From positions 1 through 31,777 of the IMG/VR virus record IMGVR_UViG_3300006874_000070: a DNA stretch of 31,777 nucleotides; one strand, given 5' to 3'. The position numbers and the translations under genes were made by a program. Numbering within the stretch: position 1 is the first letter of the stretch; every line of letters begins with the position of its first letter. The notes under the pieces were generated by a model, which saw nothing but the letters and a program-made list of their open reading frames with translations, ran no database searches and was not told the DNA's origin. Of this stretch, positions 9,688 through 31,777 are shown piece by piece. The DNA is from a virus.

Positions 9688-9700
9688 CTGGACAGAAAAC

Positions 9701-11689: not shown

Positions 11690-11690
11690 C

Positions 11691-13222: not shown

Positions 13223-13630
13223 ATGTGGATTTATAACGGAACGCCTTACGAACCAGATGAAGACGAACTCAGTCAGTGGGTTGGGTTCGTCTATCTGATC
13301 ACTGAACGTGACACCAACAAGAAGTATGTTGGTAAGAAGTTCTTTTGGTCTACTCGAAAATTGCCTCCTCTTAAGGGACAAAAAAGGAAGAGGATCAAAA
13401 AGGTTCAGTCCGACTGGAGAGACTACTACGGATCATCCGAAGAACTAAAACTTCTAGTCGAAACGAAAGGTGGGGACGCCTACCATCGTCAAATTTTGAG
13501 GTTGTGCAAATCGAAAGGTGAGTGTTCCTACTATGAGGCGAAAGAACAATTTGATCGTGATGTTCTGTTGCGAGAGGATTACTACAATGCGTTCATTGGT
13601 TGTAAGATACATGCGAAACATATCCAATGA
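13223..13630 (+). CDS. GIY-YIG-like endonuclease (Seg-like)
   Basis: A 135-residue protein. VGFVYLITERDTNKKYVGKK (from about residue 20) is the GIY-YIG hallmark in variant form (VYL...KYVG). An Arg-rich segment follows, and SYYEAKEQF near residue 110 supplies the likely catalytic Glu. It resembles small Seg-like putative homing endonucleases that I recall beside nucleotide-metabolism genes in cyanophages. No separate DNA-binding domain is seen, so it may be a nuclease used in phage DNA metabolism rather than a mobile element. It overlaps the next gene by four bases. Confidence 0.7.
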   Translation: MWIYNGTPYEPDEDELSQWVGFVYLITERDTNKKYVGKKFFWSTRKLPPLKGQKRKRIKKVQSDWRDYYGSSEELKLLVETKGGDAYHRQILRLCKSKGECSYYEAKEQFDRDVLLREDYYNAFIGCKIHAKHIQ

Positions 13631-14832: not shown

Positions 14833-14840
14833 AAAAACGC

Positions 14841-15050: not shown

Positions 15051-15274
15051 TGATTAGAATTGTGATTGGTTTGTTGATGACGTTTGGTGCGGTTGGTACT
15101 CAGGACTTCTATGATGAGTGTCTGATGGCCGCAGACTGTGTGGCTGGTGATCCCCCTAGTATGTGGGTGACTTGTGGTCTCGCCCTAGTTGGCCTCTTTC
15201 TGATGTATTGGGGTGTCTGGGACAACCGTGATGACTTCGTGAATGATGACGATGACCGTCCATATTGGGGGTAA
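15050..15274 (+). CDS. Small two-helix membrane protein
   Basis: A 74-residue protein starting at ATG 15050 (a TTG three bases earlier is an alternative). It has two hydrophobic segments, IVIGLLMTFGAVG near the start and WVTCGLALVGLFLMYWGVW around residues 42-60, ending in an Asp-rich tail. I recall similar short proteins in several phages, without a known role. It is coupled to the upstream 45-residue protein. Confidence 0.6.
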   Translation: MIRIVIGLLMTFGAVGTQDFYDECLMAADCVAGDPPSMWVTCGLALVGLFLMYWGVWDNRDDFVNDDDDRPYWG

Positions 15275-15302
15275 AAAATATCACTTTTTTTGAAAAAAAG
15301 TC

Positions 15303-15331
15303 TTGACTTTTCTTGCCCGATGGGTTATAGT
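15303..15331 (+). promoter_or_regulatory. Early-type sigma-70 promoter, family A copy 2
   Basis: TTGACT at 15303-15308 and TATAGT at 15326-15331 with 17 bases between. An UP-like palindrome, CTTTTTTTG then AAAAAAAG (15284-15300), lies directly upstream. The spacer starts TTTCTTGCC, as in the two sister promoters. It drives the small-gene run beginning at 15364. The same T/A palindrome could also act as a weak terminator for the genes before it. Confidence 0.78.
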
Positions 15332-15363
15332 ATACCTGTAACGTTGATTGAGAGAGTATTGTT

Positions 15364-17533: not shown

Positions 17534-17770
17534 ATGCCAACTTATACGTTTAAAAATTTGGAAACCGGAGAGATTTTGGAGGAGTCTCTCCGAATGTCCG
17601 AATACGATCAATTTAAGATCGACAATCCCCATCTAGAAAGAGTTTACAATTCAGTGCCAGGCCTGATATCTGGACGAATCAGTCCTATGCGTAAGGCGGG
17701 TAAGGAATGGGAAAATCATCTAGAGAGGATTAAGAAAGGTTCTGGAAAAGGAAATACCATCAATACATGA
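17534..17770 (+). CDS. Small FmdB-like protein without zinc cysteines
   Basis: A 78-residue protein beginning MPTYTFKNLETGEILEE, close to the start of FmdB-type zinc-ribbon proteins but lacking their Cys pairs. FKIDNPHLERVYNSVPGLIS is typical of a short phage family seen in marine T4-like genomes. Function unknown. It overlaps phoH by four bases. Confidence 0.6.
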   Translation: MPTYTFKNLETGEILEESLRMSEYDQFKIDNPHLERVYNSVPGLISGRISPMRKAGKEWENHLERIKKGSGKGNTINT

Positions 17771-18471
17771 AACCCAAAGTCAATACGCTTCCGCAGAAGT
17801 TACGCATTGATGATCTAAGAACCTTCGAACCAATCACAGCCTCTCAAGAAAAAGTTTATGCGGCCTGGGATAACGGTGATCATATCGTAATGTCCGGATC
17901 TGCCGGCACAGGTAAAACCTTCAGTGCGTTATATCTTGGACTAGAAGAAGTTCTGGATAAAGGTAAGATGCCTGACAAGATCATACTTGTTCGATCCATA
18001 GTACCTACACGAGAGATCGGTTTTCTGCCAGGCACCTTAGAAGAAAAGATCGATGCATACACGGGTCCATACCGTGCACTGTGTTATGAACTCTTCGATG
18101 ACAAAGAGGCCTATGACAAACTGATCAAAGAGGGTGTGATTGAGTTCGTCTCAACATCATTCATTCGAGGGTTCACGTTTGACGATGCCGTGATCATAAT
18201 CGATGAGATGCAGAACTGTACATTTCACGAGTTGGACTCTATAATTACACGAGTGGGTCACAACTGCCGAATCATCTTTTGTGGGGACTACAGACAGACA
18301 GACTTCACCAAAGAAACCGACAAAAAAGGACTGTTAAAGTTCCTTGATGTTATAGATAATATGACTAAGTTCACTAACGTAGAGTTCACTTGGTCTGACA
18401 TTGTGAGGTCAGACTTCGTAAGGGATTACATTATGACCAAGGAAATGTTGGGATACAACAGAGAGGAATAA
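17767..18471 (+). CDS. phoH: PhoH-like ATPase
   Basis: A 234-residue P-loop ATPase. Walker A is GSAGTGKT at 44-51; Walker B is VIIIDEMQN around 142-150. IIFCGDYRQTD near the C-terminal end is the sensor-like motif. PhoH-like genes are common in marine phages; their role in RNA or phosphate-stress metabolism remains uncertain. The length is that of the single-domain phage form. Coupled to the preceding small gene; no pho-box was sought in detail. Confidence 0.9.
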   Translation: MKPKVNTLPQKLRIDDLRTFEPITASQEKVYAAWDNGDHIVMSGSAGTGKTFSALYLGLEEVLDKGKMPDKIILVRSIVPTREIGFLPGTLEEKIDAYTGPYRALCYELFDDKEAYDKLIKEGVIEFVSTSFIRGFTFDDAVIIIDEMQNCTFHELDSIITRVGHNCRIIFCGDYRQTDFTKETDKKGLLKFLDVIDNMTKFTNVEFTWSDIVRSDFVRDYIMTKEMLGYNREE

Positions 18472-18993: not shown

Positions 18994-19143
18994 ATGGCGA
19001 AGTTCAGTCGGCATGACACTAGAAACAAAAAACGTAACAGACATAAGAATCTAACCAAGAGTGGATTCGTGGGAAAGATGCATCATGACTTCAGGCGAAA
19101 ACCCAAATACAAATCTGATATTTCAGTATCTAGTTATAAATGA
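18994..19143 (+). CDS. 49-residue very basic protein
   Basis: A short ORF with GGGGTG 5-10 bases before its ATG. The product has about 17 Lys/Arg and 5 His and begins MAKFSRHDTRNKKRNRHKNL. I recall comparable tiny basic proteins in cyanophages. Its last 59 bases overlap the start of the glycosyltransferase in another frame. A weak TATAAAGG (18979-18986) upstream is not a proper late promoter. Confidence 0.6.
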   Translation: MAKFSRHDTRNKKRNRHKNLTKSGFVGKMHHDFRRKPKYKSDISVSSYK

Positions 19144-19942
19144 TGACCTAGACGAAAAACGGGGAGATATCCAAGGTAGATCACGATCACAACTGTATCG
19201 TGAGATGGCAGATATCTCCCGCGAGTCATTTGAGATTTACGCCAAAACTGTTGGCGCTGATTACCTTTACTCTGATGAAGCGGTGTTCACCAAAGAAGAA
19301 TATGTACGGGACACTACCGTGTGTCTGTTCGAGTGTCTTCGAGTAATCTACGATGAGTCGTTCGACAAGTATGACAAGGTTCTCTTTGTCGATACTGACA
19401 TTGTAGCGAACACCGAACGAAACATCTTCGAAGAGGCTGATGGTGAAGTCTCTGGTGTACTAGAGTCTGATATTCGAACTGCTAACGGTGGTGGATATAA
19501 TGCATGGGACCACAAGGAATCTACTCTTCGAGATTACGTAGAGAAGTATGAGTGGCATGACGTACCCATAGTACCCGCCTTCGGAGTAATCCCTTCCAAA
19601 CTAACAATCATGAATACCGGAGTAGTTGTCTGGACACGCGAGGCGCGTATACGTGCGCGAGAGGTCTTTGACGATTGGAAGTGGTGGTTCTTTGAGGGTC
19701 CGGTTAAACACATGTCAATCATGAATGATCAACCTTATATCTCAGGCCAACTGGTGAAACACGATTTCGATATCGGTTGTATGGATCAGTTCTGGAACGA
19801 CACACCAACACACTACTCCGATCCTTGGGGTGAGGAAGCCATGTCTGCTGGGTTTCTTCACTACACTGGTGGCGAGAATAAGATCGTCATGGTGGACGGT
19901 TACAGGGAAAAAAAGTTTCCTATTTTTGAAAAAAGTTCTTGA
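19085..19942 (+). CDS. GT-A fold glycosyltransferase
   Basis: A 285-residue enzyme from ATG 19085; a GTG at 19061 would lengthen it by 8 residues. The metal/sugar-nucleotide DxD motif is D103-T-D105 in VLFVDTDIV. IMNTGVVVWTREAR and the His near the end (FLHYTGGENK) fit GT8-like enzymes. It transfers a sugar from a nucleotide sugar to an unknown acceptor. Its stop codon lies inside the -35 box of the promoter at 19939. It opens the glycan/modification block. Confidence 0.78.
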   Translation: MTSGENPNTNLIFQYLVINDDLDEKRGDIQGRSRSQLYREMADISRESFEIYAKTVGADYLYSDEAVFTKEEYVRDTTVCLFECLRVIYDESFDKYDKVLFVDTDIVANTERNIFEEADGEVSGVLESDIRTANGGGYNAWDHKESTLRDYVEKYEWHDVPIVPAFGVIPSKLTIMNTGVVVWTREARIRAREVFDDWKWWFFEGPVKHMSIMNDQPYISGQLVKHDFDIGCMDQFWNDTPTHYSDPWGEEAMSAGFLHYTGGENKIVMVDGYREKKFPIFEKSS

Positions 19943-19967
19943 CATTTCTTGCCTGATCAGTTATAGT
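19939..19967 (+). promoter_or_regulatory. Early-type sigma-70 promoter, family A copy 3
   Basis: TTGACA at 19939-19944 and TATAGT at 19962-19967 are separated by 17 bases. The spacer starts TTTCTTGCC and a T5-G-A6 UP-like tract sits upstream, as in the copies at 14841 and 15303. The tract overlaps the end of the glycosyltransferase gene. It drives the HAD, carbamoyltransferase and cupin genes. Confidence 0.82.
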
Positions 19968-19989
19968 GTAACTGAATTAAGGAACTGTT

Positions 19990-20571
19990 ATGAAAACAGA
20001 TTATGAAAAAGTGATTCTGACTGATGTTGATGGAGTACTCCTTAACTGGGGTTACGCCTTCGATATCTGGATGAATCAACATGGTTATGAAATGAAAAAT
20101 CGGGATGTCTATGACATCGCTCAGTGTTACGGTATCTCTAAAACTAAGGGTAAGGAACTGGTAAAACACTTCAATGAGAGTGCGGCGATTGGTTTCATTC
20201 CCCCTCTCAGGGACGCAATCCACTACGTGAGAAAGTTACACGAAGAACACGGATATGTGTTTCACGCAATTACCAGTCTGAGTCTTGATCCCCACGCTGC
20301 AAAGTTGCGGGAGATGAATCTCGCAAAGTTGTTTGGTGAGACTGCGTTTGAAAAGGTTGTCTGCCTCGATACTGGTGCGGACAAAGACGAAGAACTTGTG
20401 AAGTACAAGGATACTGGTTTCGTCTGGATTGAAGACAAAATCGAGAATGCCCATGTAGGAGATAAATTCGGTCTAGATAGTATCGTCATGGAACATGGTT
20501 ACAATATGAACGACTACACGTTTCCTCTGATGAAAAACTGGAAAGAGGTATATGAATACCTAGAGGGTTGA
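19990..20571 (+). CDS. HAD-superfamily phosphatase / 5'-nucleotidase-like
   Basis: A 193-residue protein. LTDVDGVLLNW at 10-20 gives the nucleophile D12 and acid D14 of HAD phosphatases. ITSLS supplies motif II, and FVWIEDKIENA the acidic motif IV. Length and motifs resemble deoxyribonucleotidase-like HADs. Standing immediately before a carbamoyltransferase, it may dephosphorylate a sugar or nucleoside intermediate. It is led by its own promoter. Confidence 0.75.
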   Translation: MKTDYEKVILTDVDGVLLNWGYAFDIWMNQHGYEMKNRDVYDIAQCYGISKTKGKELVKHFNESAAIGFIPPLRDAIHYVRKLHEEHGYVFHAITSLSLDPHAAKLREMNLAKLFGETAFEKVVCLDTGADKDEELVKYKDTGFVWIEDKIENAHVGDKFGLDSIVMEHGYNMNDYTFPLMKNWKEVYEYLEG

Positions 20572-22068
20572 ATGAGATACATAGGATTCTCTGAGTTCTA
20601 TCATGATGCGGGAGTCAGTGTCATCGAAGAAGATGGCACTGTCTCCTATGCAACACATGCAGAACGATGGTCTAAGAAAAAGAATGATGCGATAATCCCA
20701 CCTGAGTTGTGGGATTTTGTAGGCCAAGAAAAAGGTGATGTGGTCACCTTTTATGAGGACCACCACATCAAGTATAACGTTCGTGGTGGTTTGGCGGTAG
20801 AACCTAAGTTAGACAATTACAAAAAAGAACTCCATTACCACCACAAGATCCCTGTGTATGAGTCTCTTGTGTATGACAAGAAAGAACTACATCACACATC
20901 CCATTGTGCGGGTGCATTCTATACACGCCCTTGGCAGTCAATAGAAGATACCGTAATGGTGTCGATTGATGGTGCTGGAGAAGTCCAGACTGGGGTCATC
21001 CTAGATCACAACTTCAATCTAATCAAAGAGTGGCACTACCCTAAGTCCGTTGGGTTAATCTATGCAATGGTCACTGAGTTTCTTGGTCTGAGACCTCTAG
21101 AGGACGAATACGTGGTCATGGGATTATCATCCTATGGTGAACCCGTATTCGCCGACTGGTTGTACGAACAATATCACAAGTTCTCTGATATCGCAAAGGA
21201 GATAGAAGAGGGTACTCTCATTGGGGTCAGTCATTCGGATAGAGAGAAACGAAGAAAGGTTTTCCGTAAGGAACTAAAATGGAAGTGTTACAACAACAAG
21301 GACCAAGACTCCGCTGCATCTGTACAGGAGTTTGCGGAACGTGCAATCCTTGAGATCATGCGTGAGGCGCGTAAACACGGATCTAAGTTAGTCTACTCTG
21401 GTGGATGTGCACAGAACGTTGTTACGAACTCTAAGATCGCAGAATTGTTTGATGAGGTTCACATTGCAATCGCTCCCGCAGACTCAGGGTCTTCTCTGGG
21501 GTGCGCCGCAAAAACGTGGGCGGATGAGACCGGAGGAACTCATCTTCGTTGGAACCCTTACTTAGGAACCAACATTGACCGTGAGATTAACCCGTCCGAT
21601 GTTGTTGACCACTTATTGTCAGAACAATACTGTGGTATCGCAAACGGTAGATCAGAGTTTGGTCCACGTGCACTGGGTAACAGATCCTTGATTGCAGACG
21701 TTCGGTTTGATGTCAAGGATACGGTCAACGCAATCAAACGGAGACAGAAGTATCGTCCATTTGCTCCTGCGATTCTCGAAGAGTATGCGGACCAATATTT
21801 CTCTGGTCCGATGAATGAGTACATGCAATTTACCAGTAAGGCATTACATGACTACAAGTCGGTGACCCATGTAGATGGAACCGCAAGGGTACAGGTTGTC
21901 CGTAAGGATTGTCAATCTATATTCCGTAAAATTATTGAAGAGTACTATGAACGCACTGGTGTCCCTATGCTCTTGAATACTAGTCTTAACGTTAGGGGTA
22001 GACCTATGGTCGATGATCTTCGAGACGCTAAGATTTGGGAAAGTACATATAACGTAAGGGTATTTTAA
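20572..22068 (+). CDS. NodU/CmcH-family carbamoyltransferase
   Basis: A 498-residue enzyme that transfers a carbamoyl group from carbamoyl phosphate, via carbamoyl-AMP, to a hydroxyl of a sugar or antibiotic-like molecule. Conserved features: YHDAGVSVI at 10-18, HHTSHCAGAFYTRPW (His cluster), VSIDGAGE, YSGGCAQNVVTNSKI, and in the C-terminal domain NGRSEFGPRALGNRSL and YRPFAPAIL. Length is slightly below the family's usual 550-600. It abuts the HAD gene with no gap. The acceptor is not known. Confidence 0.88.
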   Translation: MRYIGFSEFYHDAGVSVIEEDGTVSYATHAERWSKKKNDAIIPPELWDFVGQEKGDVVTFYEDHHIKYNVRGGLAVEPKLDNYKKELHYHHKIPVYESLVYDKKELHHTSHCAGAFYTRPWQSIEDTVMVSIDGAGEVQTGVILDHNFNLIKEWHYPKSVGLIYAMVTEFLGLRPLEDEYVVMGLSSYGEPVFADWLYEQYHKFSDIAKEIEEGTLIGVSHSDREKRRKVFRKELKWKCYNNKDQDSAASVQEFAERAILEIMREARKHGSKLVYSGGCAQNVVTNSKIAELFDEVHIAIAPADSGSSLGCAAKTWADETGGTHLRWNPYLGTNIDREINPSDVVDHLLSEQYCGIANGRSEFGPRALGNRSLIADVRFDVKDTVNAIKRRQKYRPFAPAILEEYADQYFSGPMNEYMQFTSKALHDYKSVTHVDGTARVQVVRKDCQSIFRKIIEEYYERTGVPMLLNTSLNVRGRPMVDDLRDAKIWESTYNVRVF

Positions 22069-22069
22069 T

Positions 22070-22417
22070 ATGAAGGCAGGTAAAGTTTGGGGTCAGACGG
22101 AACTGATCGAAGCGAACGGTGTACTAGAGTTTCATCGTATCGAAATGAAGAAGGGTGGTGTGTGTTCCAAACACAAACACAAGTATAAGTGGAACGGGTT
22201 CTTCTGTGAGTCCGGAGAACTACTCATTCGAGTGTGGAAGAACGCATATGATCTTGTTGATGAAACAATTCTCAAGCCCGGACAGTATACCAAGGTTGCG
22301 CCAGGCGAGTTTCACCAGTTCGAATGTTTGAAGGATGGTGTCGCCTATGAATTGTACTGGGCGGAGTTCAACCATGATGATATTGAAAGAGAGTCCGTAG
22401 GGTTCCAACAGGTATAA
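22070..22417 (+). CDS. Cupin-domain protein 1
   Basis: A 115-residue single-domain cupin. HKHKYKWNGFFCESGELLIRV and the C-terminal motif PGEFHQFE give the expected metal-binding His/Glu set. Such proteins include sugar-phosphate isomerases and epimerase-like enzymes. It is one base after the carbamoyltransferase stop, so a joint role on the same sugar is likely. Confidence 0.75.
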   Translation: MKAGKVWGQTELIEANGVLEFHRIEMKKGGVCSKHKHKYKWNGFFCESGELLIRVWKNAYDLVDETILKPGQYTKVAPGEFHQFECLKDGVAYELYWAEFNHDDIERESVGFQQV

Positions 22418-22423
22418 AATATT

Positions 22424-22747
22424 ATGAAATTCAAAAGTTCAAGTATTGAAGGAACGGTTGTAAAAAATGATGATCGTTACATTGTAAAGGATAACACAAC
22501 ACTAAAAAATCTTGTTGTTAGTTCAACAAGATTAAATCCACGCAAAAGCACAAGTGGACACAAGCACGAAGGACAGGAAGAAGTTTACATGTTTCTTGAA
22601 GGCAGTGGCACTATGGAACTGGATGATGTAACTCATAATGTTGAAGCAGGCGACACTGTGTTAATTGAGGACGGTGTGTTTCATCGTGTTCATGCAGGCA
22701 ATGAAGAATTGTATTTTGTATGCGTGTTTGATGGAAGTAGAAAGTAA
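22424..22747 (+). CDS. Cupin-domain protein 2, compositionally distinct
   Basis: A 107-residue cupin. GHKHEGQEEVYMFLEGSGTM and the C-terminal AGDTVLIEDGVFHRV give two His and a Glu for metal, then a third His. It resembles mannose-6-phosphate-isomerase-like cupins. The gene is more AT-rich than its neighbours and its Gly codons are mostly GGC/GGA (8 of 9), whereas the adjacent cupin favours GGT. Lys is largely AAA. This suggests recent transfer into the block. Confidence 0.76.
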   Translation: MKFKSSSIEGTVVKNDDRYIVKDNTTLKNLVVSSTRLNPRKSTSGHKHEGQEEVYMFLEGSGTMELDDVTHNVEAGDTVLIEDGVFHRVHAGNEELYFVCVFDGSRK

Positions 22748-22759
22748 CGAGACAAACGG

Positions 22760-22767
22760 TATAAATA
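22760..22767 (+). promoter_or_regulatory. T4-type late promoter (TATAAATA)
   Basis: A perfect TATAAATA octamer in the 50-base gap before the EF-hand membrane protein, 30 bases before its ATG. It shows that this gene is switched on late, separately from the early-type promoter at 19939. Confidence 0.72.
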
Positions 22768-22797
22768 CTTCCGACAATAACAATAAGAGAGGTAACC

Positions 22798-23136
22798 ATG
22801 TCGGAAGAAAAACAAACCTTAACTGTCGATAAGGACAGTGATCTCAGTACAGCAGATTTGAATGGTGATGGTCACATCTCTAATGAAGAGTTGTCGATGC
22901 ACCTTGAGTTCAAGAGAAGAGAACTCGAAGACAAAGACGCACAGAGAGACGCCATTCGTAAGATGGCTTGGTTCTCCCTGTTCGGACTTTTAGTCTATCC
23001 GTTAGGTATTGTAATCACTGCGGTTCTGGGTCTAGAAAAGGCTGCCGAACTTATTGCAGATATTGCACCTACCTACTTTGCATCGATTGCGGTTCTGGTG
23101 GCAGCGTTCTTCGGAGCAGACGCCTACAAGAAATAG
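22798..23136 (+). CDS. EF-hand membrane protein, holin-like topology
   Basis: A 112-residue protein. A canonical EF-hand loop spans D20 to E31 (DLNGDGHISNEE, with D20, N22, D24, G25, I27 and E31). An amphipathic charged helix follows, then two transmembrane segments at about 52-75 and 88-109. I recall this family in marine T4-like phages, without function. Two membrane helices and a late promoter make it a candidate holin or lysis regulator that might respond to calcium; this is inference. Confidence 0.7.
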   Translation: MSEEKQTLTVDKDSDLSTADLNGDGHISNEELSMHLEFKRRELEDKDAQRDAIRKMAWFSLFGLLVYPLGIVITAVLGLEKAAELIADIAPTYFASIAVLVAAFFGADAYKK

Positions 23137-23151
23137 ATAAGTACCTTTATT

Positions 23152-24018
23152 ATGAGAAAAGTTTCGTGGAGAGGTACGCCAGGCGTTGGAGATTTTATGT
23201 GGGCACTTAACTGTGCACACAACTACTCCTATGAATTCAAAGAAACAGTAGACCTCACCTTCCATTGGGAACACGGTGAGGACTACCTTCATCACTTCGA
23301 AGATCCCGAAACCATAATCGAAAGACTCGAATACATTCACAACTTCTATCACCGGAAAGAGGATGTGGTGGTAAACCACGTCTTCAACTCAACAGATCCC
23401 ATGTACTCCTCTTGGAAATTTTCTGATGATGTGATCCAGAAAGATGGTGAACACAAACCAACCATAGTCGCCAAGGGGACAGAGAAAAAACGGTTCTGGT
23501 TCGAAGACGGTTGGTTTAATGACGAGAAGGGGAGGACACTACCCTACAACGACTGGGCGTTCAGACAAGACAGTTTTCTCCCAAAAGACGATAACAAGAT
23601 AGTTGTCTGGACTCCTATCCTAAATGCAGAAACACCAAGAACTTGGAAAAGACTCTTGCCAAACCGTGAATGGTATGGTATAATAAATCTACTTCGCCGC
23701 TCAGGGTTCAATGTAGTAGAGTTGTCTTATCGTACTCCGGTAAGAGAGGCGATGTACCATATCTCTAACTGTAGACTAGTGTTCTGTTATGATGGTATGT
23801 GGCATTACATTGCAAGGAACTTCTTTAAACCCATGATTGTGATGAGTGATCAGGGTGTGACTACATACCACACCCCTCAGGCTCAGAAGTTATCTCCGAA
23901 TAAGGACGATAAGAGAAAGAATATATACGAGATGAAAAAGAACATGAACGAGTTTCTGGGTCTTCCGAAGAAGAGGGCCGTTGAATTTCAGAAAGCGATG
24001 CAGTGGATCTATGACTGA
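23152..24018 (+). CDS. GT-B-like glycosyltransferase (heptosyltransferase-related)
   Basis: A 288-residue protein. The N-terminus WRGTPGVGDFMWALN fits the Gly-rich loop of GT9 heptosyltransferase-like enzymes. The C-terminal part, ISNCRLVFCYDGMWHYIARN then FFKPMIVMS, fits their nucleotide-sugar-binding motif (D-G..H..A). It probably transfers a sugar to a glycan or lipid core. It overlaps the radical SAM gene by eight bases. Confidence 0.66.
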   Translation: MRKVSWRGTPGVGDFMWALNCAHNYSYEFKETVDLTFHWEHGEDYLHHFEDPETIIERLEYIHNFYHRKEDVVVNHVFNSTDPMYSSWKFSDDVIQKDGEHKPTIVAKGTEKKRFWFEDGWFNDEKGRTLPYNDWAFRQDSFLPKDDNKIVVWTPILNAETPRTWKRLLPNREWYGIINLLRRSGFNVVELSYRTPVREAMYHISNCRLVFCYDGMWHYIARNFFKPMIVMSDQGVTTYHTPQAQKLSPNKDDKRKNIYEMKKNMNEFLGLPKKRAVEFQKAMQWIYD

Positions 24019-24994
24019 TATTAAAATAGACAGAGCGGTTATTGAGGTTCAGGGTGCCTGTAACTTTGACTGTACCATGTGTCCCCAAGACAAACGTGCG
24101 GGAGGTAGACACAAGGGGTTCCTAACCAAGATGAGTCTTCTAGAGTTTGAAGACAACGTGTATGACTGTGTACAACACGGACTTCGAGTAGTGAACCTAG
24201 ATGGTTCTGGTGAGGCGACGATTAATCGTAACCTACCCGAATACATCAAGATCGTTAAGAAGTATAACGCACAGGCGATTATCTTCTCGAACGGTTTTCG
24301 TATGCGTGGTCAGTTCATGAGAGATTGCGTAGACGCTGGTCTCGATTTCTTTCGGTTCTCTTTCATTGGACCAACACCCGAACTCTACGATAAGTGGATG
24401 CACAACACACGGGGAAGTTCATACGAACTGATCAAACAAAACGTCAAAGAGATGAAGGAGTACGTCGATCAAACTGGTAGCGGTTGTGTTGTGGAGACCT
24501 ATCACTTGATCACAGACAACGATAACCTAGAATGGGAACTAGATAAGTACAAAGAACTAGTCGAAGAACTTGGTGTCAAAACAGAAATTTGGAAGATGCA
24601 TAACTGGTCTGGTGCTTGGGACATTGGAAAGAATGCACGAAAAGGTGAGGTAAAAACTTGTGGAAGGCCTTTTAGTCCTGACGTTGTTATCCGTGCTGGC
24701 GGTCTTGATGGTCAACGGGGTGCTGTTCATCCTTGTTGCCAAGTCCTTGGTAGAGACGAAGAAGCCGTCCTTGGACACACCAGTCAAAACACAATCGAAG
24801 AGATTATTCGGGGAGAAGAGTACTCTGCGTTGAGACAGGCTCATCGTACTGGAGACTATCCCGATTACTGTAAGTCCTGTGATTTCTTATTAGATGATCC
24901 AGAGGTGCTCGTGTATACAAATCACGATAGAGACCTATACAAGATGATCGGGACTGAATTTGATCTAAACGACTATCGGGAGGTAGTAGAATGA
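24011..24994 (+). CDS. Radical SAM enzyme with SPASM-like C-terminal cysteines
   Basis: A 327-residue protein from ATG 24011, overlapping the previous stop by 8 bases; a start at 23981 is possible but would overlap more. C17-x3-C21-x2-C24 (ACNFDCTMCPQ) binds the SAM [4Fe-4S] cluster. GEATIN and IIFSNGF are typical barrel motifs. A SPASM-like set follows: C217, C242-C243, C287 and C290. Such enzymes modify peptides, sugars or nucleosides by radical chemistry. It lies between two glycosyltransferases. Confidence 0.86.
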   Translation: MTDIKIDRAVIEVQGACNFDCTMCPQDKRAGGRHKGFLTKMSLLEFEDNVYDCVQHGLRVVNLDGSGEATINRNLPEYIKIVKKYNAQAIIFSNGFRMRGQFMRDCVDAGLDFFRFSFIGPTPELYDKWMHNTRGSSYELIKQNVKEMKEYVDQTGSGCVVETYHLITDNDNLEWELDKYKELVEELGVKTEIWKMHNWSGAWDIGKNARKGEVKTCGRPFSPDVVIRAGGLDGQRGAVHPCCQVLGRDEEAVLGHTSQNTIEEIIRGEEYSALRQAHRTGDYPDYCKSCDFLLDDPEVLVYTNHDRDLYKMIGTEFDLNDYREVVE

Positions 24995-25221
24995 AATCAA
25001 TAGTTAAGTGGTTTAAAGATTTGTTTTTAGAAGAGTTTGAGGTCACTATCTGGTTCAAGGGTGGTACAGAATACAGTCCGTCAGAGTTTAAACGGGACTG
25101 GCGTATGAAGAAGATCATTACCAAGAAACAAACTCACTTTGTTGGTATTGATATTGACGGTAACATGGTTGAAATCAAAACAACAACCCCATTTGATTAT
25201 AGGATTAGGAAGATACATTGA
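24991..25221 (+). CDS. Hypothetical protein between radical SAM and glycosyltransferase genes
   Basis: A 76-residue protein. It starts with an amphipathic helix (IVKWFKDLFLEEF), then beta strands (VTIWFKGGTEY, HFVGIDIDGNMVEIK). It has the look of a small beta-sheet phage protein, without a recognised family. Its four-base overlap with the radical SAM gene and TTGA overlap with the next show coupling. Confidence 0.55.
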   Translation: MKSIVKWFKDLFLEEFEVTIWFKGGTEYSPSEFKRDWRMKKIITKKQTHFVGIDIDGNMVEIKTTTPFDYRIRKIH

Positions 25222-26003
25222 GACGTTTAATATATCAGGTAGCGGTAGGTAAACCCTCTCAACTTTACGAACACTGTATTAAGAGTGTCTCGAACTACTG
25301 TAAGTATCATGGAATTGGTCACATAGTACAGAGACAACCGATATTTCGTATTGCTCCCGATCCCTTTAACATGGGTCGATCCCGCGAGTCCTTCGAGAAG
25401 TACGGTGGTTACCTACCTATCTTTGAGAAAGAGGTTGCGTTCAATTATCTGGATGAGTATGACCAGATCGCAATCGTGGATGCTGACATCTACATCCGTC
25501 CTAACTCCCCCAATATCTTCGAAGACTTTGGGACAGACAGGGCGTTCGGTGCGGTCATCGAACGGGAGATGCCTATCAGGAGTTGGTACATCGACAAGAT
25601 AATCAACTACTCTCGTATGCAGTACGGACAACTCCACAACAACAAAGTTGATTTCAAACCAACAGCGGCAGGGTTCGAGTATGCGAACATGGGGTTGATC
25701 CTACTCAACAGTGAGAAGTTTAAACCTTTCCTCAAGGGGCAGACAGGTAAACAGTTTCTCGAACGTGCAGAGTTCAAGAACTTTGTTGATGGTGTGGGCC
25801 CTTGGAAGTGGAGTACAGATCAAACACTACTAAACTACTTTGTTAAGAAGTACAACGTTCCTTTCAGGAAAATGCACTGGAAGTGGAACGGTCTATACAC
25901 CGCAAATGACAAGATAGAAGATTGTCACTTCGTCCATTTCTTCCTGAAGGATAAACTACCTAATCAGGGAGAGGATGTTGTGGAATTGATGAATCGGATA
26001 TGA
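25218..26003 (+). CDS. GT-A fold glycosyltransferase
   Basis: A 261-residue protein. The start is a TTG overlapping the previous stop (TTGA), with AGGAAG a few bases upstream; the first residues would be MRRLIYQVAVG. The DxD motif is D88-A-D90 in IAIVDADIYI. ANMGLILLNSEKF and WSTDQTLLNYFV fit GT8-like sugar transferases. It differs from the enzyme at 19085 but shares the fold. The acceptor is unknown. Confidence 0.75.
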   Translation: MRRLIYQVAVGKPSQLYEHCIKSVSNYCKYHGIGHIVQRQPIFRIAPDPFNMGRSRESFEKYGGYLPIFEKEVAFNYLDEYDQIAIVDADIYIRPNSPNIFEDFGTDRAFGAVIEREMPIRSWYIDKIINYSRMQYGQLHNNKVDFKPTAAGFEYANMGLILLNSEKFKPFLKGQTGKQFLERAEFKNFVDGVGPWKWSTDQTLLNYFVKKYNVPFRKMHWKWNGLYTANDKIEDCHFVHFFLKDKLPNQGEDVVELMNRI

Positions 26004-26794
26004 AACCCAAAGTAGCGATGGGGTTGTGTTACCCTTCGGGTTCGGGTGGCATGTTCCTTACGGAATTGATCTACCCAACCACGGATGATAAGTCCGGTAA
26101 GTACGAGACTAATCCAGGCTGTAACCGTTCCGTATCTCACAATGAGTATGGTGGTGCACAAGAGTGTGTCTTCGTTGATAACACCGATGGACCCCTTGAG
26201 GCGAACGAGAAGTCTATCCTTGTTGCGAAGTTAAATATCCACAAGTATCTACCGTTCTATGACTGTCCGATTACATATCAGATAGATGTACAGGACGATG
26301 AGTCCTACGCATTTACGCAAGAACTCTTCTTCTTAAAAAAATACCTTGGGGGGTATCCTCAGTACGAAGAAGAGTTTAAGGACGTATTCCAAGAGTCTGG
26401 ACTGTCTGAACTGTTGTCTGAATTCAAGAGTATACATCCCTATTCAAAGATCGCCACGGATCTCTATCGAATGTACCTAGAAGTAGGTCAGATAAACAGA
26501 GATATGGTGTTGAGTCAATGCAGAACAATTTATTCAGAATACCTTGACAGGGGACAAAAATCAAGGTATAATAAGAAAGAACGTTGGGACAGGGATACTA
26601 ATATTGATCGTAGTGCGTTGTATGATCCAGAAGAGATAAAGAAGCACACGCACCTAGAGGTGATCAGTTATGCCGATCTGTTTCTAAACGGTAAACAGAC
26701 TTGGACAATCTGGGATAGTTACCTAGAGGAGATAGGAGAGTACACAGAAAGAAACTGGAGACTCATCGAACAGTTTGAGGACGAATTCTTATAA
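26000..26794 (+). CDS. P-loop protein, possibly sulfotransferase-related
   Basis: A 264-residue protein. GLCYPSGSGGMFLTEL (8-23) resembles the nucleotide/PAPS-binding loop of sulfotransferase-like proteins, and the C-terminal region EVISYADLFLNGKQTW looks like the late region of that family. There is no clear R..P 3'-phosphate motif, so the call is tentative. A consensus sigma-70 promoter lies within its last third. It overlaps the GT gene by four bases. Confidence 0.5.
   Translation: MKPKVAMGLCYPSGSGGMFLTELIYPTTDDKSGKYETNPGCNRSVSHNEYGGAQECVFVDNTDGPLEANEKSILVAKLNIHKYLPFYDCPITYQIDVQDDESYAFTQELFFLKKYLGGYPQYEEEFKDVFQESGLSELLSEFKSIHPYSKIATDLYRMYLEVGQINRDMVLSQCRTIYSEYLDRGQKSRYNKKERWDRDTNIDRSALYDPEEIKKHTHLEVISYADLFLNGKQTWTIWDSYLEEIGEYTERNWRLIEQFEDEFL
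26539..26572 (+). promoter_or_regulatory. Consensus sigma-70 promoter within a 9-base inverted repeat, internal to a CDS
   Basis: TTGACA (26544-26549) and TATAAT (26567-26572) are both perfect with 17 bases between. They are overlaid by the arms ATACCTTGA (26539-26547) and TCAAGGTAT (26561-26569). The -35 box lies in the left arm and the start of the -10 in the right. It is inside the 26000-26794 gene and could drive the ferritin-like gene at 26845. The repeat may be an operator. Confidence 0.55.
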
Positions 26795-26797
26795 ATA
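26790..26797 (+). promoter_or_regulatory. T4-type late promoter (TATAAATA)
   Basis: A perfect TATAAATA octamer spanning the stop codon of the preceding gene, 47 bases before the ATG at 26845. Together with the consensus sigma-70 element some 220 bases upstream, it gives the ferritin-like gene possible early and late expression. Confidence 0.65.
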
Positions 26798-26844
26798 AAG
26801 AAGGTGAACATCTATATTAAAAGAGTGATTAACAGGAGAACCTT

Positions 26845-27543
26845 ATGTTAGAACCACAAGAGTTTGTGAAGAAAATTCGCAACGAAAACCAAGCCCTCTT
26901 CGAGGCGTCTAAGATGAATGTCAAGGCGTACTTCGAAGGTGACCTTTCCGAAGAGGAAATGGTCGATCACTTCATTGGTCGCATGGTCAATGAACGTATG
27001 AACATGTCTGAGATTTCTATGCAGATTGCAAATGCAGCGGATGACGCAGACCCCAAAGAATTAGAACTTCTTTCTAAACAAGCCGCAGACGAGGCGAAAC
27101 ACTATCGCATGGTCAAGGAAGTTATCGAACACATCTCTGGTGAGGAGATCGATGCAGCCTCTGCAATCCGCAAGGAACGTGAGATGGATACCGCAAAGGG
27201 TGCGACTCTGTTAGAGAAGTATGGTGCAGAGAATGACGAAGCAGTTCTCGCCGCGTATCAGTTGGTTGCGGAAGGACGTGCGGAAGCAGTCTGGAACCAG
27301 ATGGCAGACACCATCGAAGACTCATTCATTTCAAGTCGTTATCGTGAGATCGCAAAGGACGAAGGTTTCCACAGTGCAATCGGTGGATACAAACTACGCA
27401 AGGTTGCAACAGACGAAGAGACACAGAACCGTGTCCAACGTGTTGTTGAAGGTATGCGTAAAGACCTTTTTGAAATCTCGTGTGCAAACACAGTTGAAGC
27501 GACTGGATCACGTGAACTCGTAAACGAAGCTTACGGTTGGTAA
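26845..27543 (+). CDS. Ferritin-like di-iron protein
   Basis: A 232-residue helical protein with two ExxH motifs, E83-x-x-H86 (ADEAKHY) and E173-x-x-H176 (KDEGFHS). Further Glu residues on the other helices (E50 or E56; E143 or E147) complete a four-helix di-iron site. Possible roles are oxygenase, oxidase or iron storage; the family cannot be settled by eye. AGGAGA precedes the ATG. Codon use is strongly biased to preferred codons (GCA, GAA, CGT), suggesting high expression. A late promoter leads it. Confidence 0.72.
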   Translation: MLEPQEFVKKIRNENQALFEASKMNVKAYFEGDLSEEEMVDHFIGRMVNERMNMSEISMQIANAADDADPKELELLSKQAADEAKHYRMVKEVIEHISGEEIDAASAIRKEREMDTAKGATLLEKYGAENDEAVLAAYQLVAEGRAEAVWNQMADTIEDSFISSRYREIAKDEGFHSAIGGYKLRKVATDEETQNRVQRVVEGMRKDLFEISCANTVEATGSRELVNEAYGW

Positions 27544-27546
27544 ATC

Positions 27547-28110
27547 ATGAAAATTGGACTCACTCAACGAGTCCTCACGTTTCCTAACACTGGAATAGTT
27601 CATGACGCTTTAGAACATGGTTGGTACAAGTTCCTAAAGGGTCATGAACTCATTCCTATCCCAAATCGTGAAGACTTAGATTATGAAACCCTCTCAGACG
27701 AATTGGATCTACTCATCATAACAGGTGGGCGGAACGACGATATTCGTATCATCACAGAAGTAGGGATCGCCACAGAGATGGTGACCGAAGGTAAACCCGT
27801 ACTTGGTATTTGTCACGGGGCGTTTCTACTCACCTCAATTCTGGGTGGATACGTCGAAGGTGATAAAATTAAGGAACAACACTACATAACAGAACACAAC
27901 GTTTTTTATGATGGAAGACCTTACTGGGTCAATAGTTATCACGATATCTGGATTGCAGAACCACCGCCCGGATCTGTAGTACTTGCAACTGATCCAGAGG
28001 GAGACTGTGAATCGTGGTATAAAAACAACATTGGTGCGATAGTATGGCATCCAGAAAGAATGGAGAAACCCTTCATTCCGACAGAGATTTTAGAGGTGAC
28101 AGGATTATGA
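27547..28110 (+). CDS. Class I glutamine amidotransferase-like protein
   Basis: A 187-residue protein of the class I GATase fold. The nucleophile elbow is GICHG with C89; the catalytic His-Glu pair is H168-P-E170 (WHPERM). TGGRND forms the oxyanion loop. It splits glutamine to supply ammonia, or hydrolyses a gamma-glutamyl bond (peptidase C26 type). No fused synthetase domain is present, so a partner is needed for amide synthesis. It overlaps the next gene by four bases. Confidence 0.82.
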   Translation: MKIGLTQRVLTFPNTGIVHDALEHGWYKFLKGHELIPIPNREDLDYETLSDELDLLIITGGRNDDIRIITEVGIATEMVTEGKPVLGICHGAFLLTSILGGYVEGDKIKEQHYITEHNVFYDGRPYWVNSYHDIWIAEPPPGSVVLATDPEGDCESWYKNNIGAIVWHPERMEKPFIPTEILEVTGL

Positions 28111-28799
28111 AGAACAACATGTTCCATCTCCATCACGGTGAAACGTTTCAGGTAAACGATATCTGGAGATATGACGTTCAGGTGTGGAAAGGACAATACG
28201 AAGAAGTGTCGGAAGGTTGGCAGGACCATAACAGTTATGTGATGGGCAAGTCTTGCAACTTTCGAAGTAACAACAGTGGGTGGAGTATCAAAGACTCGAA
28301 CTTCGCCGCTTCGGTGAACTCAGGGTTTCAGGCAGAAACACTGGATGAGGACTCCACACTAGTCAACATCAAATACTATGGACTTGGGATGAACGACGAA
28401 CGTTTGTTTGTACCCAACGCCCGTGGTGTAACAGGTAATCTATCCTACATGGATGGTGGTACTAACACCACCGCAGTCAATCCGGGCCGATTAGGACTTC
28501 CGGTCATCAACTACGTGCACTTCCCCAAAGGAATGCAACAAACACTCCATACTCACCCAAGTCAACGTATCGGTCTTATCCTCAGTGGATCCGGTCAGAT
28601 CGAACTTGACAACAACGAAGTGTTCCCCATTAACAGGGGTGACGTTTGGGTTATGGAAAGAAACGTTCTACATAATTTTATGTGTAACAAAGGTGAAGAC
28701 GTAACCCTTTTCGTGTTTGCGCCTGACTCTGGTACAGGCCCAACAGATGAAGTTAACCCATTGAAGGTACGTACCTATGTCGGACAACAACGAGTATAA
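28107..28799 (+). CDS. Cupin-domain protein 3
   Basis: A 230-residue protein from ATG 28107, overlapping the previous stop (ATGA). The C-terminal half is a cupin: HTHPSQRIGLILSGSGQIEL then INRGDVWVMERNVLHNFM, with two His in HTH and a later His as likely metal ligands. The N-terminal half (MFHLHHGETFQVNDIW) is unique and aromatic-rich. A role as isomerase, dioxygenase or sensor cannot be told. It overlaps the following P-loop gene by 23 bases. Confidence 0.68.
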   Translation: MKNNMFHLHHGETFQVNDIWRYDVQVWKGQYEEVSEGWQDHNSYVMGKSCNFRSNNSGWSIKDSNFAASVNSGFQAETLDEDSTLVNIKYYGLGMNDERLFVPNARGVTGNLSYMDGGTNTTAVNPGRLGLPVINYVHFPKGMQQTLHTHPSQRIGLILSGSGQIELDNNEVFPINRGDVWVMERNVLHNFMCNKGEDVTLFVFAPDSGTGPTDEVNPLKVRTYVGQQRV

Positions 28800-29448
28800 C
28801 CGAAACAGACCAATCGGAAAACACATTCTATTGGTCACAGGCCCACAGGGTTCTGGTAATCACTTATTCAGTAAAATCCTTGGTCTCAGCGAACATGTCT
28901 ATGGTTGGGACTTTGGAGAGAAGTATTGGATTCCGAGTGATGAGGAACCCTTTGCAGAATGTTGGGTCAATCCGGAACTGACCGTTCCTACCCTAGAGAA
29001 GATCAAAGAGGACTACGTTGTCGCAAACGTCAGTGTCCCATTTGTCTTTGACGGAGAGAAACGAATTCCCGCCATTCAGGAGTTCGTTGATGAAGCCAAG
29101 AGTGCGGGTCATAGAGTAACTGTTTGTATCGTCTCTCGTGACCGTAACATCAACTGTCTTCAACAGGAAAGGGTAAGGGACGAAATAACCCTACCTACTG
29201 CGATGGCGTACTATCGTTGTCTTGATTGCGACTTTGCGTTTCTATCCCACGAAACTTTATACCTACATAAAGGTATGTACTTAAAGTATTTGTCGAGGAC
29301 TCTAGGATTTCCTATTGACTACGACAACCCAAGAGTGTATGATATACTGGTAGAAGATCAGAATAACAAATATGTAAAATATGTTGAGGAGCACTGGTTA
29401 GATAATGAAGTCTGGAAAGGTCTTAGACCCAAGTCTGAAAGAAAATAG
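28777..29448 (+). CDS. P-loop NTPase / sulfotransferase-like protein
   Basis: A 223-residue protein. LLVTGPQGSGNHLFSKIL (18-35) is a P-loop of the type in PAPS-dependent sulfotransferases and kinases; GSGNHL is close to the 5'-phosphosulfate loop. VTVCIVSRDRNINCLQQERV may be the region binding the 3'-phosphate. I recall similar proteins in cyanophages. It overlaps both neighbours. Confidence 0.58.
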   Translation: MSDNNEYNRNRPIGKHILLVTGPQGSGNHLFSKILGLSEHVYGWDFGEKYWIPSDEEPFAECWVNPELTVPTLEKIKEDYVVANVSVPFVFDGEKRIPAIQEFVDEAKSAGHRVTVCIVSRDRNINCLQQERVRDEITLPTAMAYYRCLDCDFAFLSHETLYLHKGMYLKYLSRTLGFPIDYDNPRVYDILVEDQNNKYVKYVEEHWLDNEVWKGLRPKSERK

Positions 29449-30019
29449 GTATATCCTATTCACAGGTGCGCCAGGCTCTCGTTGGTCTGGTGTGTCTAAT
29501 AACATTTGGATCGCACCCGACTTCGATCACACCGACTCTACACCTGAACGAAAATACACACACAACAACGGACTGGTTCATGGTGGTGCATACTTTGACC
29601 CCATGATGGAGTTCGACTTTGATCCCTCAAACTGGGACTTGCCATTTAGTGGTGAAGGTGTCCGGTTGATCAAGTCACACACACTTTCAACCCAACTACA
29701 GAACTTTCACAAGTACCGGATTATTCTGGTCTATCGAAACGACTATGAGTGTTGGAAGTGGTGGAATGAGTGTGGAGGTTTTGATATAACCTACCCGAAC
29801 TACGCTTGGTACAAAAATCAAGAAAACATGTTTGACCAGATTCAAAGACAGAATCAGGCGATAATGCAATTCATATATAAGAACGAAAATAAAGTAACTC
29901 AATGTGATAACAACTTAGAGGTTCTGAAGTTACTTGACCTAACTTGGAAATTAGATCCTTCGGTCATAACAGATGAATACTCTAAGAAGGATGTGAAAGT
30001 TTATGTCTACAGACCTTAA
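29405..30019 (+). CDS. P-loop / sulfotransferase-like protein
   Basis: A 204-residue protein starting 44 bases inside the previous gene. ILFTGAPGSRWSGVSNNIW (18-36) is the loop. RLIKSHTLS and IILVYRNDYECWKWWNE fit the substrate-His and 3'-phosphate regions of sulfotransferases. It is Trp- and Asn-rich. The fold is inferred from these motifs only. Confidence 0.55.
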   Translation: MKSGKVLDPSLKENRYILFTGAPGSRWSGVSNNIWIAPDFDHTDSTPERKYTHNNGLVHGGAYFDPMMEFDFDPSNWDLPFSGEGVRLIKSHTLSTQLQNFHKYRIILVYRNDYECWKWWNECGGFDITYPNYAWYKNQENMFDQIQRQNQAIMQFIYKNENKVTQCDNNLEVLKLLDLTWKLDPSVITDEYSKKDVKVYVYRP

Positions 30020-30557
30020 TCCACACATGGATTTTTTGAAGGATTATTTTACTAACACGTGGCCTAGTTCCAGAACCGCTGGTTTAGATGGTTACTACTG
30101 GACTGGGTTTCGACTGATTGATGAAGTGAAAAGAGAAGAAAGGGTATTAGATGTCGGTTGCGGAGTCAATCCTTTTAAGCGTCATATTGATCTACTCCAC
30201 GGTATCGATATTACTGATATAGGTGCGGATGAAGTATGTCCGATTGAAGACTATGAAGTTGTCGATATGTACGAGGATAAATATGACGTTGCATTCTGTC
30301 TGGGTAGTATCAACTTTGGATCGTATGATCTTGTTGAATTGCAATGCAAGAGAGTGTGTGAGGCACTAAAGGAAAAATCTAGGATCTACTGGAGGTGCAA
30401 TCCGGGCCACAGAGATCATGGTAATGATAGGGTAGGTGAGATACCCTTCTTCAACTGGACGATAGATCATCACATCGATCTATCAAGAAAGAACGGGTTT
30501 GAGGTGACCGAATTGATGCCTGACAGGAATAGGATGTACGTGAAATGGGAACGTTAA
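30003..30557 (+). CDS. Class I SAM-dependent methyltransferase
   Basis: A 184-residue protein. VLDVGCGVNPFK (about 48-59) is motif I binding S-adenosylmethionine. VAFCLGSINF fits motif IV. The rest is a single Rossmann domain without a recognised substrate domain. It overlaps both neighbours (17 and 13 bases). It likely methylates the molecule made by this block. Confidence 0.75.
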   Translation: MSTDLNPHMDFLKDYFTNTWPSSRTAGLDGYYWTGFRLIDEVKREERVLDVGCGVNPFKRHIDLLHGIDITDIGADEVCPIEDYEVVDMYEDKYDVAFCLGSINFGSYDLVELQCKRVCEALKEKSRIYWRCNPGHRDHGNDRVGEIPFFNWTIDHHIDLSRKNGFEVTELMPDRNRMYVKWER

Positions 30558-31195
30558 GAGAATTATTCGACAAGTGGGATTGCGACAAAGGTACTAAGAA
30601 ACACTGTTACGACAACTGTTACGAGCAGTATTTCTGGGACGTGAAGGATGACCAACTCAATCTTCTTGAGATTGGTTGTTTTCGGGGGGAGAGTACTGCC
30701 GCATTTTTGGAATATTTTCCTCATGCGACTATTTACACAATCGACATCTTTGAGAGGACTCATCCCGATAGTCTTGATGTCCTGAAGGATGAACGTGTGA
30801 AGTGGTTGAAGTATGATAGTTGTCACGCCGCACTGCCGAATGCAATCCGTAGGATGTGGGGTAACGATATCAAGTTTGACTTTATTATCGATGATGGTGC
30901 ACACTGGCCTGAAGCGAACCGAAAGACTTTCGAAAACTGTTTCCCGTTTCTAAAACAAGACGGGGTGTACTTCATCGAAGACGTTTACATGTTAGATCGG
31001 GATTATGCCGCTAACGACCCTTGGGTAAAGAAACAACCCGATAGGTACAAGATCGGAGAACACATCCGATTGATGAACACCATCGATAAGTACGATGTCA
31101 AACACTATGACTACCACGAACGTGAGTACATGCATCTGGGGGCGATATGTAGAAATCCCGACTCTTATATCTTAAGGGTAATGCATGGATCGTAA
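30545..31195 (+). CDS. Class I methyltransferase (CmcI/TylF-like)
   Basis: A 216-residue protein. LLEIGCFRGESTAAFLEYFP is motif I; FDFIIDDGAHWPEANRKTF, followed by FLKQDGVYFIEDVY, is typical of Methyltransf_24/CmcI-type O-methyltransferases from sugar and antibiotic pathways. The acidic and His residues in DDGAHW may hold metal. It overlaps the sulfotransferase gene by 11 bases. Confidence 0.78.
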   Translation: MGTLRELFDKWDCDKGTKKHCYDNCYEQYFWDVKDDQLNLLEIGCFRGESTAAFLEYFPHATIYTIDIFERTHPDSLDVLKDERVKWLKYDSCHAALPNAIRRMWGNDIKFDFIIDDGAHWPEANRKTFENCFPFLKQDGVYFIEDVYMLDRDYAANDPWVKKQPDRYKIGEHIRLMNTIDKYDVKHYDYHEREYMHLGAICRNPDSYILRVMHGS

Positions 31196-31777
31196 ACTCT
31201 TCATACACATCCCCAAAAACGGTGGTATGACTCTCCGCAGAAATGTGGAGTTACGCAAACGTCTGATACTTGCACACCCGACTCACCATTGTAATAGGAC
31301 ATACACCAAACGTCTCGAAGAAAAGATGCGAGCCACGGGTGATGATATGGGGTACGAACACGCCCGATGGAGAGACGTGGATAATACGATAAGAAACACC
31401 TATAAGTCTTTTGCGATAGTTCGAAACCCTTGGGCAAGAGTTGTATCTCGTTACTGGTTTGCAAAGAAGGTCATTGAGGTCGAATACAATTCGAACGTCT
31501 ACGGTAACAAAGAGTATGCGGATGTATCATCCTTCGAAGCGTTCCTTGAGGAACGTCACAAGTGGGGTGGTGAAGAATTTATGTGGCATCGTGCAGTGCG
31601 GGGTTGGTATCCCGCATACGATCACGTGTGTGACAAAGAGGGTAATGTAAGGTGCGACATCCTTCGGTTTGAGAACTACAACGATGATATCAAAGCCTAT
31701 TTCAAGGTACTGTTCGATCCGGAACCTCGTAACGTAACAGGACTCTTGACAGACCCCTATCAGTCCATGTATAATGA
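31185..31777 (+). CDS. Sulfotransferase (partial, runs off window end)
   Basis: An open reading frame of at least 197 residues, cut by the window edge. FIHIPKNGGMTLR (6-18) is the 5'-phosphosulfate loop and FAIVRNPWARVVSRYW (about 76-91) the 3'-phosphate motif of Sulfotransferase_2 enzymes. It is the clearest sulfotransferase in the window and is related in plan to the gene at 33-758. It probably sulfates a glycan. Confidence 0.83.
   Translation, partial: MDRKLFIHIPKNGGMTLRRNVELRKRLILAHPTHHCNRTYTKRLEEKMRATGDDMGYEHARWRDVDNTIRNTYKSFAIVRNPWARVVSRYWFAKKVIEVEYNSNVYGNKEYADVSSFEAFLEERHKWGGEEFMWHRAVRGWYPAYDHVCDKEGNVRCDILRFENYNDDIKAYFKVLFDPEPRNVTGLLTDPYQSMYN
31746..31775 (+). promoter_or_regulatory. 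Consensus sigma-70 element, family B
   Basis: TTGACA (31746-31751) and TATAAT (31770-31775) are separated by 18 bases. From three bases before the -35 into the spacer it matches the nrd-operon promoter at 9286 at 18 of 20 positions. It is within the sulfotransferase coding region near its likely end, so it may serve a gene beyond the window. Confidence 0.5.

Follow-up and report, generated by a model that had tools for sequence, protein, structure and literature searches.

T4-like cyanophages carry carbamoyltransferases, and their lipopolysaccharide (LPS) gene clusters are large; one such cluster lies near phoH (PMC3037559). In the sugar clusters of P-SSM2 and S-SSM7 a carbamoyltransferase and glycosyltransferases lie beside phoH (PMC3037559), an arrangement that resembles the first part, and not the second, of the gene block analysed here. 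This block adjoins PhoH (17767-18471) in the IMG/VR virus record IMGVR_UViG_3300006874_000070, a 31.8-kb record whose entire 31,777 nucleotides we refer to as the window. Phage C48C1 (OQ984149) carries the GT8, HAD, CARB, GTB and rSAM genes of the window (listed below) in the same order and at 51-72% identity, but FER, GAT and ST2 have no tblastn match there, and the likeness covers only what we call unit A. The original prediction, made from sequence alone, had described the block as a single carbamoyl, sulfo and methyl modification island; promoter predictions divide it instead into two transcription units, with boundaries at HAD and FER. Sugar clusters like unit A (19990-26003) are ordinary and already known among marine T4-like phages. 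We consider there to be about an even chance that the two units adjoining phoH are such a glycosyl/carbamoyl cluster and, separate from it, a tailoring pathway that is expressed late and has spread horizontally. The features of the block are as follows.

Unit A, with the gene before it and the one after it:
19061..19942, + strand: GT8-like (GT-A) glycosyltransferase, upstream of the early-type promoter (PF01501 21.2 bits against a cut-off of 24.3)
19939..19967, + strand: sigma-70-type promoter of unit A, TTGACA-17-TATAGT, 11 of 12 consensus matches
19990..20571, + strand: gene 1 of unit A (HAD), a phrog_420 protein (114 bits) read as a HAD-like phosphatase
20572..22068, + strand: NodU/TobZ-type O-carbamoyltransferase (CARB; PF16861 155 bits, PF02543 119 bits)
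22070-22417 and 22424-22747, + strand: two small single-domain cupins (Cupin_2 28.4 and 49.5 bits; cut-off 27.2)
22798..23136, + strand: small protein with an EF-hand-like stretch and a hydrophobic C-terminus (EF-hand_5 22.6 bits, under the cut-off)
23152..24018, + strand: putative GT-B glycosyltransferase (GTB), a reading from sequence only, with no family match
23981..24994, + strand: radical SAM/SPASM enzyme (rSAM; PF04055 50.9 bits, PF13186 33.3 bits; 72% to C48C1)
25218..26003, + strand: putative GT-A glycosyltransferase (GTA2; phrog_28746 at 20.6 bits only; DxD-like VDADIY)
26000..26794, + strand: u26000, with a glycine-rich N-terminal loop; no family match; in 13 loci

Unit B:
26790..26797, + strand: late promoter of T4 type for unit B, TATAAATA, 47 nt ahead of FER
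26845..27543, + strand: gene 1 of unit B (FER), ferritin-like diiron protein with invariant predicted metal ligands
27547..28110, + strand: GAT, class I/C26 amidohydrolase, nearest to gamma-glutamyl-CDP-amidate hydrolase (Cj1417)
28107..28799, + strand: cup3, cupin (Cupin_2 37.7 bits), its start overlapping the GAT stop as ATGA
28777..29448, + strand: ST2, P-loop protein with a predicted sulfotransferase/kinase fold (GPQG[SA]GNH motif; AlphaFold2 pLDDT 88.7)
29405..30019, + strand: ST3, P-loop protein linked to FER, sulfotransferase-like by motif only (GxPGS[RK]WS)
30003..30557, + strand: MT1, class I SAM methyltransferase (weak Pfam match in the window; DVGCG motif invariant)
30545..31195, + strand: MT2, methyltransferase (Methyltransf_24 38.1 bits; phrog_21658 64 bits)
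31185..31777, + strand: ST4, sulfotransferase (Sulfotransfer_2 38.4 bits), cut by the window end

The two boundary promoters are of different class. A sigma-70-type site with at least 11 of 12 consensus matches lies upstream of HAD in 19 of 22 distinct relatives and in none of the shuffles, and no such site was found upstream of 13 other genes examined. FER is preceded instead by TATAAATA; a review lists this sequence and NATAAATA for late promoters in T4, KVP40 and cyanophages (PMC2984593). The window holds five TATAAATA sites where 0.96 are expected, a number reached by 0 of 100 shuffles, and the site stands upstream of FER in all 27 distinct upstream regions of the window clade (shuffles give 0.5), a clade delimited by FER identity of at least 80%, or above 64% when GTA2 is also present, and not by a genome tree. 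In relatives it was not found before PhoH, GT8, HAD, CARB, GTB, rSAM, GTA2, GAT, cup3, ST2, ST3, MT1, MT2 or ST4; a further copy at 22760-22767, upstream of the EF-hand gene, recurs in only 2 of 21 relatives. In two near-complete relatives TATAAATA is enriched on the coding strand, where it fronts homologs of the C48C1 sheath, tube, baseplate, head-closure, DNA-end-protector and tail-fibre-assembly genes as well as some genes without a C48C1 counterpart. Beyond the window clade the exact site does not stand before every FER but is still enriched there (17 of 89 where 3.5 are expected). From FER on (26845 to the window end), the frames of unit B run head to tail, with a 3-base gap followed by overlaps of 4-44 bases. 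From these patterns we infer early-type control of unit A and late control of unit B. Knowing the promoter class of each half of the supposed island also makes the halves separately testable.

The units also differ in their phyletic distribution. Scans detected 228 viral relatives of FER, 223 of GAT and more than 500 of ST2; the 80 best-scoring loci were kept per scan, so that the following fractions describe those loci and not all relatives, and some loci come from contigs that another query had already picked up. In a set of 45 loci that were found with ST2 and have low identity to the window, FER is present in 42, ST3 in 34, MT1 in 33 and GAT in 25; the 38 GAT-found loci, one of which (L255) is a window-clade contig, contain FER (36), ST3 (27), MT1 (27) and ST2 (25). 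About half of the loci carry all five core families. CARB, by comparison, occurs in three loci of each set, and rSAM in none of the ST2-found and one of the GAT-found loci. Since unit B is found in divergent phages almost always without CARB and rSAM, it need not concern glycans, and the separate distributions, together with promoters of different class, lead us to reject the single-island reading. The earlier description of the block as a toolkit for a decorated glycan or natural product fits, but as two things. Unit A is of glycan type, with its glycosyltransferases and carbamoyltransferase, to which relatives add a GT25 and a sugar nucleotidyltransferase.

It could still be argued that both units jointly build one sulfated, carbamoylated and methylated sugar on the virion or host envelope. 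Gene order is kept in about 40 related contigs, and the units adjoin in about 40 contigs of the window clade; downstream of unit B, relatives carry GT25 and GT8-like genes, and a HAD plus sugar nucleotidyltransferase protein is present in 24 window-clade loci. We regard this joint product as unlikely, given the split by promoter class, the near-consistent lack of CARB and rSAM beside unit B in other lineages, the presence of unit A without FER in C48C1, and a shared core of unit B that includes no glycosyltransferase. Whatever the product, the genes of the block are under purifying selection wherever an estimate of synonymous divergence was possible: most comparisons give a ratio of nonsynonymous to synonymous divergence (dN/dS) of about 0.03-0.3, with a few very similar pairs noisy and up to 0.6. 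Stuffer DNA, an explanation raised for LPS genes (PMC3037559), is unlikely at these ratios.

Unit B is led by FER, which was overlooked in the original prediction. Its predicted ligands E50, E83xxH86, E143 and E173xxH176 are invariant in 122 of 122 distinct sequences, which have no internal stops, and the AlphaFold2 model is all-helical (pLDDT 93; helices 36-62, 70-98, 132-156 and 160-187), placing an E...ExxH...E...ExxH pattern on four predicted helices. FER has no PDB sequence, NCBIfam or PHROG match, and scores 15 bits with Ferritin_2, under the cut-off of 24.7. Foldseek gives weak matches to heme-oxygenase-like diiron oxidase (HDO)/ferritin-like enzymes, the ribonucleotide reductase R2 subunit and rubrerythrin; the top matches are all diiron or helical-bundle proteins with a probability near 1, the better ones having TM-scores of about 0.5-0.64. 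FER thus appears similar to TenA-like proteins, PqqC, CADD, UndA, PolF, R2 and rubrerythrin in combining a helical bundle with carboxylate/histidine diiron ligands, while its ligand set differs from the three-histidine set of HDO enzymes.

The second gene, GAT, has a C89, H168, E170 triad that is invariant in 111 of 111 sequences. By a wide margin its best NCBIfam model is NF045546, that of Cj1417 (50 bits in the window, 74-96.5 in relatives), with a near full-length match and a shared Cys-His-Glu triad; the model cut-off, however, is 250 bits, and the partner glutamine kinase was not found. These similarities invite a phosphoramidate pathway, in which GAT would make CDP-phosphoramidate as for the methyl-phosphoramidate (MeOPN) of the Campylobacter capsule, and MT1 and the P-loop proteins would finish and transfer the group, a kinase and a methyltransferase being needed for MeOPN too. 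We consider this highly improbable: the glutamine-kinase-type domain PPDK_N is present in 0 of 28 viral FER records (which may be fragments), and the bacterial clusters described below have no GAT. Membership in the MeOPN pathway was accordingly rejected on the PPDK_N result and the position of GAT far under the NF045546 cut-off. A gamma-glutamylation pathway of the PuuA/PuuD type was likewise rejected, as the glutamine-synthetase-like ligase domain PF00120 occurs in 0 of the 28 records.

The HTHPSxR and LHNF motifs of cup3 are conserved across phage and bacterial copies, and the MT1 ortholog in Janthinobacterium matches Methyltransf_11 at 30.8 bits. ST2 has no Pfam, PHROG or NCBIfam match; its best Foldseek match is SULT1A1 (E 5.6e-4), with adenylate kinase equally close, and its predicted fold is like those of SULT1A1, TPST and adenylate kinases, both fold families scoring similarly. 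ST3 has no family match, and its homology to ST2 is unsupported, the P-loop alone being common to both (hhalign probability 11%). Of the four sulfotransferase candidates, ST4, which is complete in relative L003 with GT25 coming next, exceeds the Pfam cut-off, whereas ST1, a sulfotransferase-like protein near the window start, falls below it and ST2 and ST3 are without a match:

33-758: ST1, sulfotransferase-like (17.9 bits against a cut-off of 22; IPKTASTT and RHPVDRF motifs)

APS_kinase is detected above its cut-off in 14 of 31 FER records, in a gene (c38) that is often near ST2, and in some relatives the APS-kinase-like domain is fused to a nicotinamide mononucleotide (NMN)-adenylyltransferase-like domain (e.g. 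L056:12561-13415 and L075:14161-14997). Other lineages add a 2-oxoglutarate (2OG)-Fe(II)-oxygenase-like protein (c24, weak PF13640).

A TctC-type binding protein (PF03401 38.5 bits) is encoded in 12 of the 38 GAT-found loci, usually right after GAT. From this one might propose an auxiliary metabolic gene module that converts a carboxylate or amide nutrient, imported via the phage TctC, to feed late phage growth. This seems quite unlikely, as TctC is missing in most lineages, the window clade included, and the sulfotransferase-like and methyltransferase genes point to synthesis and not breakdown. A TctC/Bug periplasmic binding protein lies at L064:11254-12219, with similar genes beside FER-GAT in L073, L075 and L082.

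Searching FER, GAT and ST2 by tblastn against 50,697 phage records gave no match, so hundreds of environmental viral contigs carry a conserved module whose FER, GAT and ST2 escape the catalogued phage genomes; ST3 matched in only two single-cell marine virus records. A literature search on the gene set and on phage ferritin-like/diiron, phosphoramidate and TctC genes found no description of unit B. A T4-type Gp23 is encoded on 14 of 29 FER contigs.

Unit B is not confined to viruses. Scanning a genome collection for FER returned five contigs, three of them metagenome-assembled (and possibly phage) and two from isolates, Massilia atriviolacea and Janthinobacterium sp. UMAB-56, each of which has FER, cup3, ST2, ST3 and MT1. 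In both, FER-cup3-ST2 lie on one strand and MT1, ST3 and sulfatase-family genes on the other, amid host-type genes; a sulfatase-family gene beside the bacterial cluster scores 63 bits with PF00884. A search for a GAT counterpart in the two isolates returned only PfpI-, GuaA- and CarA-like partial matches, none near FER. FER is present in only 2 of 394 genomes from the family of these two genera, and in a quick FER tree both bacterial copies fall among the viral sequences of one large cluster (support 90-98); this nesting suggests that the bacteria acquired the FER cluster from phage. With a version of the module in two isolates, ordinary knock-outs and metabolomics could reveal its product even when no phage is in culture. 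Beside the bacterial FER cluster, L088:8504-9136 encodes a 2H phosphoesterase (2_5_RNA_ligase2, 39.9 bits), and a similar gene is present in the Massilia locus L087.

The bacterial copies bear on phage DNA as a target, which the original prediction had offered as one of three and for which we found no positive evidence. Under DNA hypermodification, FER and another oxygenase would oxidize a base, with the P-loop proteins acting as base kinases or sulfotransferases. Late expression would permit replicated DNA to be modified before packaging, and P-loop DNA-base kinases occur in other phages. Chromosomal copies in bacteria do not fit such a role, and we noticed neither a DNA glycosylase nor a base pyrophosphorylase in the loci, although no specific search for them was made; we consider this explanation very unlikely.

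Most likely, unit B tailors a small molecule or virion group late in infection by oxidation, sulfation and methylation, and the late set probably makes a product that is sulfated. In such a pathway FER would use O2 to hydroxylate or otherwise oxidize a small precursor, GAT would cleave a gamma-glutamyl or glutamine amide, and a cupin, or the 2OG-Fe(II)-oxygenase-like protein in other phages, would perform a second oxidation or an isomerization. MT1 would add a methyl group, and ST2/ST3 would move sulfate from 3'-phosphoadenosine 5'-phosphosulfate (PAPS), with an adenosine 5'-phosphosulfate (APS)-kinase-like protein supplied by some relatives. The product would be made during virion assembly and most likely be fixed to progeny virions or released at lysis; in the window clade it is perhaps placed on a virion glycan. 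Given the late promoter, virion modification or a released product is the better fit for unit B and superinfection exclusion a poor one, while early-type control leaves modification of the host envelope possible for unit A. More tentatively, and with clearly less than an even chance, we propose that unit B is an undescribed biosynthetic pathway of uncultured aquatic phages, in which an orphan diiron oxygenase would act with an amidohydrolase, a cupin, two sulfotransferases and a methyltransferase, turned on as virions assemble, to give a sulfated product on virions or freed at lysis; rare bacteria would have obtained it from phages.

Several observations weigh against the reading of unit B as a late tailoring pathway. 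Every Foldseek match of FER is above E 0.001, ST2 resembles adenylate kinases as much as sulfotransferases, ST3 resembles a sulfotransferase by its motif only, and the fused relatives match PF01583 marginally (22-29 bits), and these domains may instead be P-loop kinases of another kind. Neither bacterial cluster has GAT, nor do some of the ST2-found loci, and so it is not required in every version.

Unit A resembles phage glycan/LPS clusters in having CARB above the cut-off and PhoH adjoining, with the GT8-like gene just below its cut-off. CARB (phrog_1601 267 bits; 62% to C48C1) has tblastn relatives in 145 phage records, and thus the view that the toolkit is unusual in a phage holds for unit B but not for unit A, for which cyanophage clusters also provide precedent. 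The GT8-like gene is kept in about 39 related loci (55% to the C48C1 copy) and GTB in 39, whereas the two cupins vary among relatives. Curated models bear out much of the enzyme list first drawn up for the block (carbamoyltransferase, three cupins, radical SAM/SPASM enzyme, amidotransferase, MT2 and ST4); the GT8-like protein at 19061, the sulfotransferase at 33-758 and the methyltransferase at 30003 are plausible but below cut-off, and no family match backs the GT-A at 25218, the GT-B at 23152, ST2 or ST3. Phrog_420 is a family of unknown function, and HAD has no Pfam match, its phosphatase reading coming from the sequence only.

Apart from PhoH, the window encodes IscU and both subunits of a class I ribonucleotide reductase. 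As a T4-type major capsid gene is present on 115-149 kb contigs among its near-identical and close relatives, the window is a piece of a T4-like phage genome; megablast of the island against phage records gave no match. End-to-end alignment of the window IscU with that of E. coli (230 bits) hints at a proteobacterial host. The IscU iron-sulfur scaffold gene (11685-12068) overlaps the end of NrdA and lies just ahead of NrdB. The large ribonucleotide reductase subunit (9668-11689) has a glutaredoxin domain at its C-terminus, and an AMP-binding (acyl/aryl-adenylating) enzyme is encoded at 13627-14832 (29.6 bits, just under the cut-off of 29.9). A protein combining CHASE2 with a class III adenylate/guanylate cyclase is encoded at L043:993-3044 (PF05226 117 bits, PF00211 69 bits) and L282:11212-13032, and the window-clade contig G002 carries a relative of the cyclase, by sequence likeness only, with TATAAATA about 54 bases upstream. 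Finally, two genes of the window have upstream of them a 70-base repeat (15269-15338 and 19905-19974, 80% identical) with a sigma-70-type promoter in it, and near 14840 there is a shorter element resembling the repeat.

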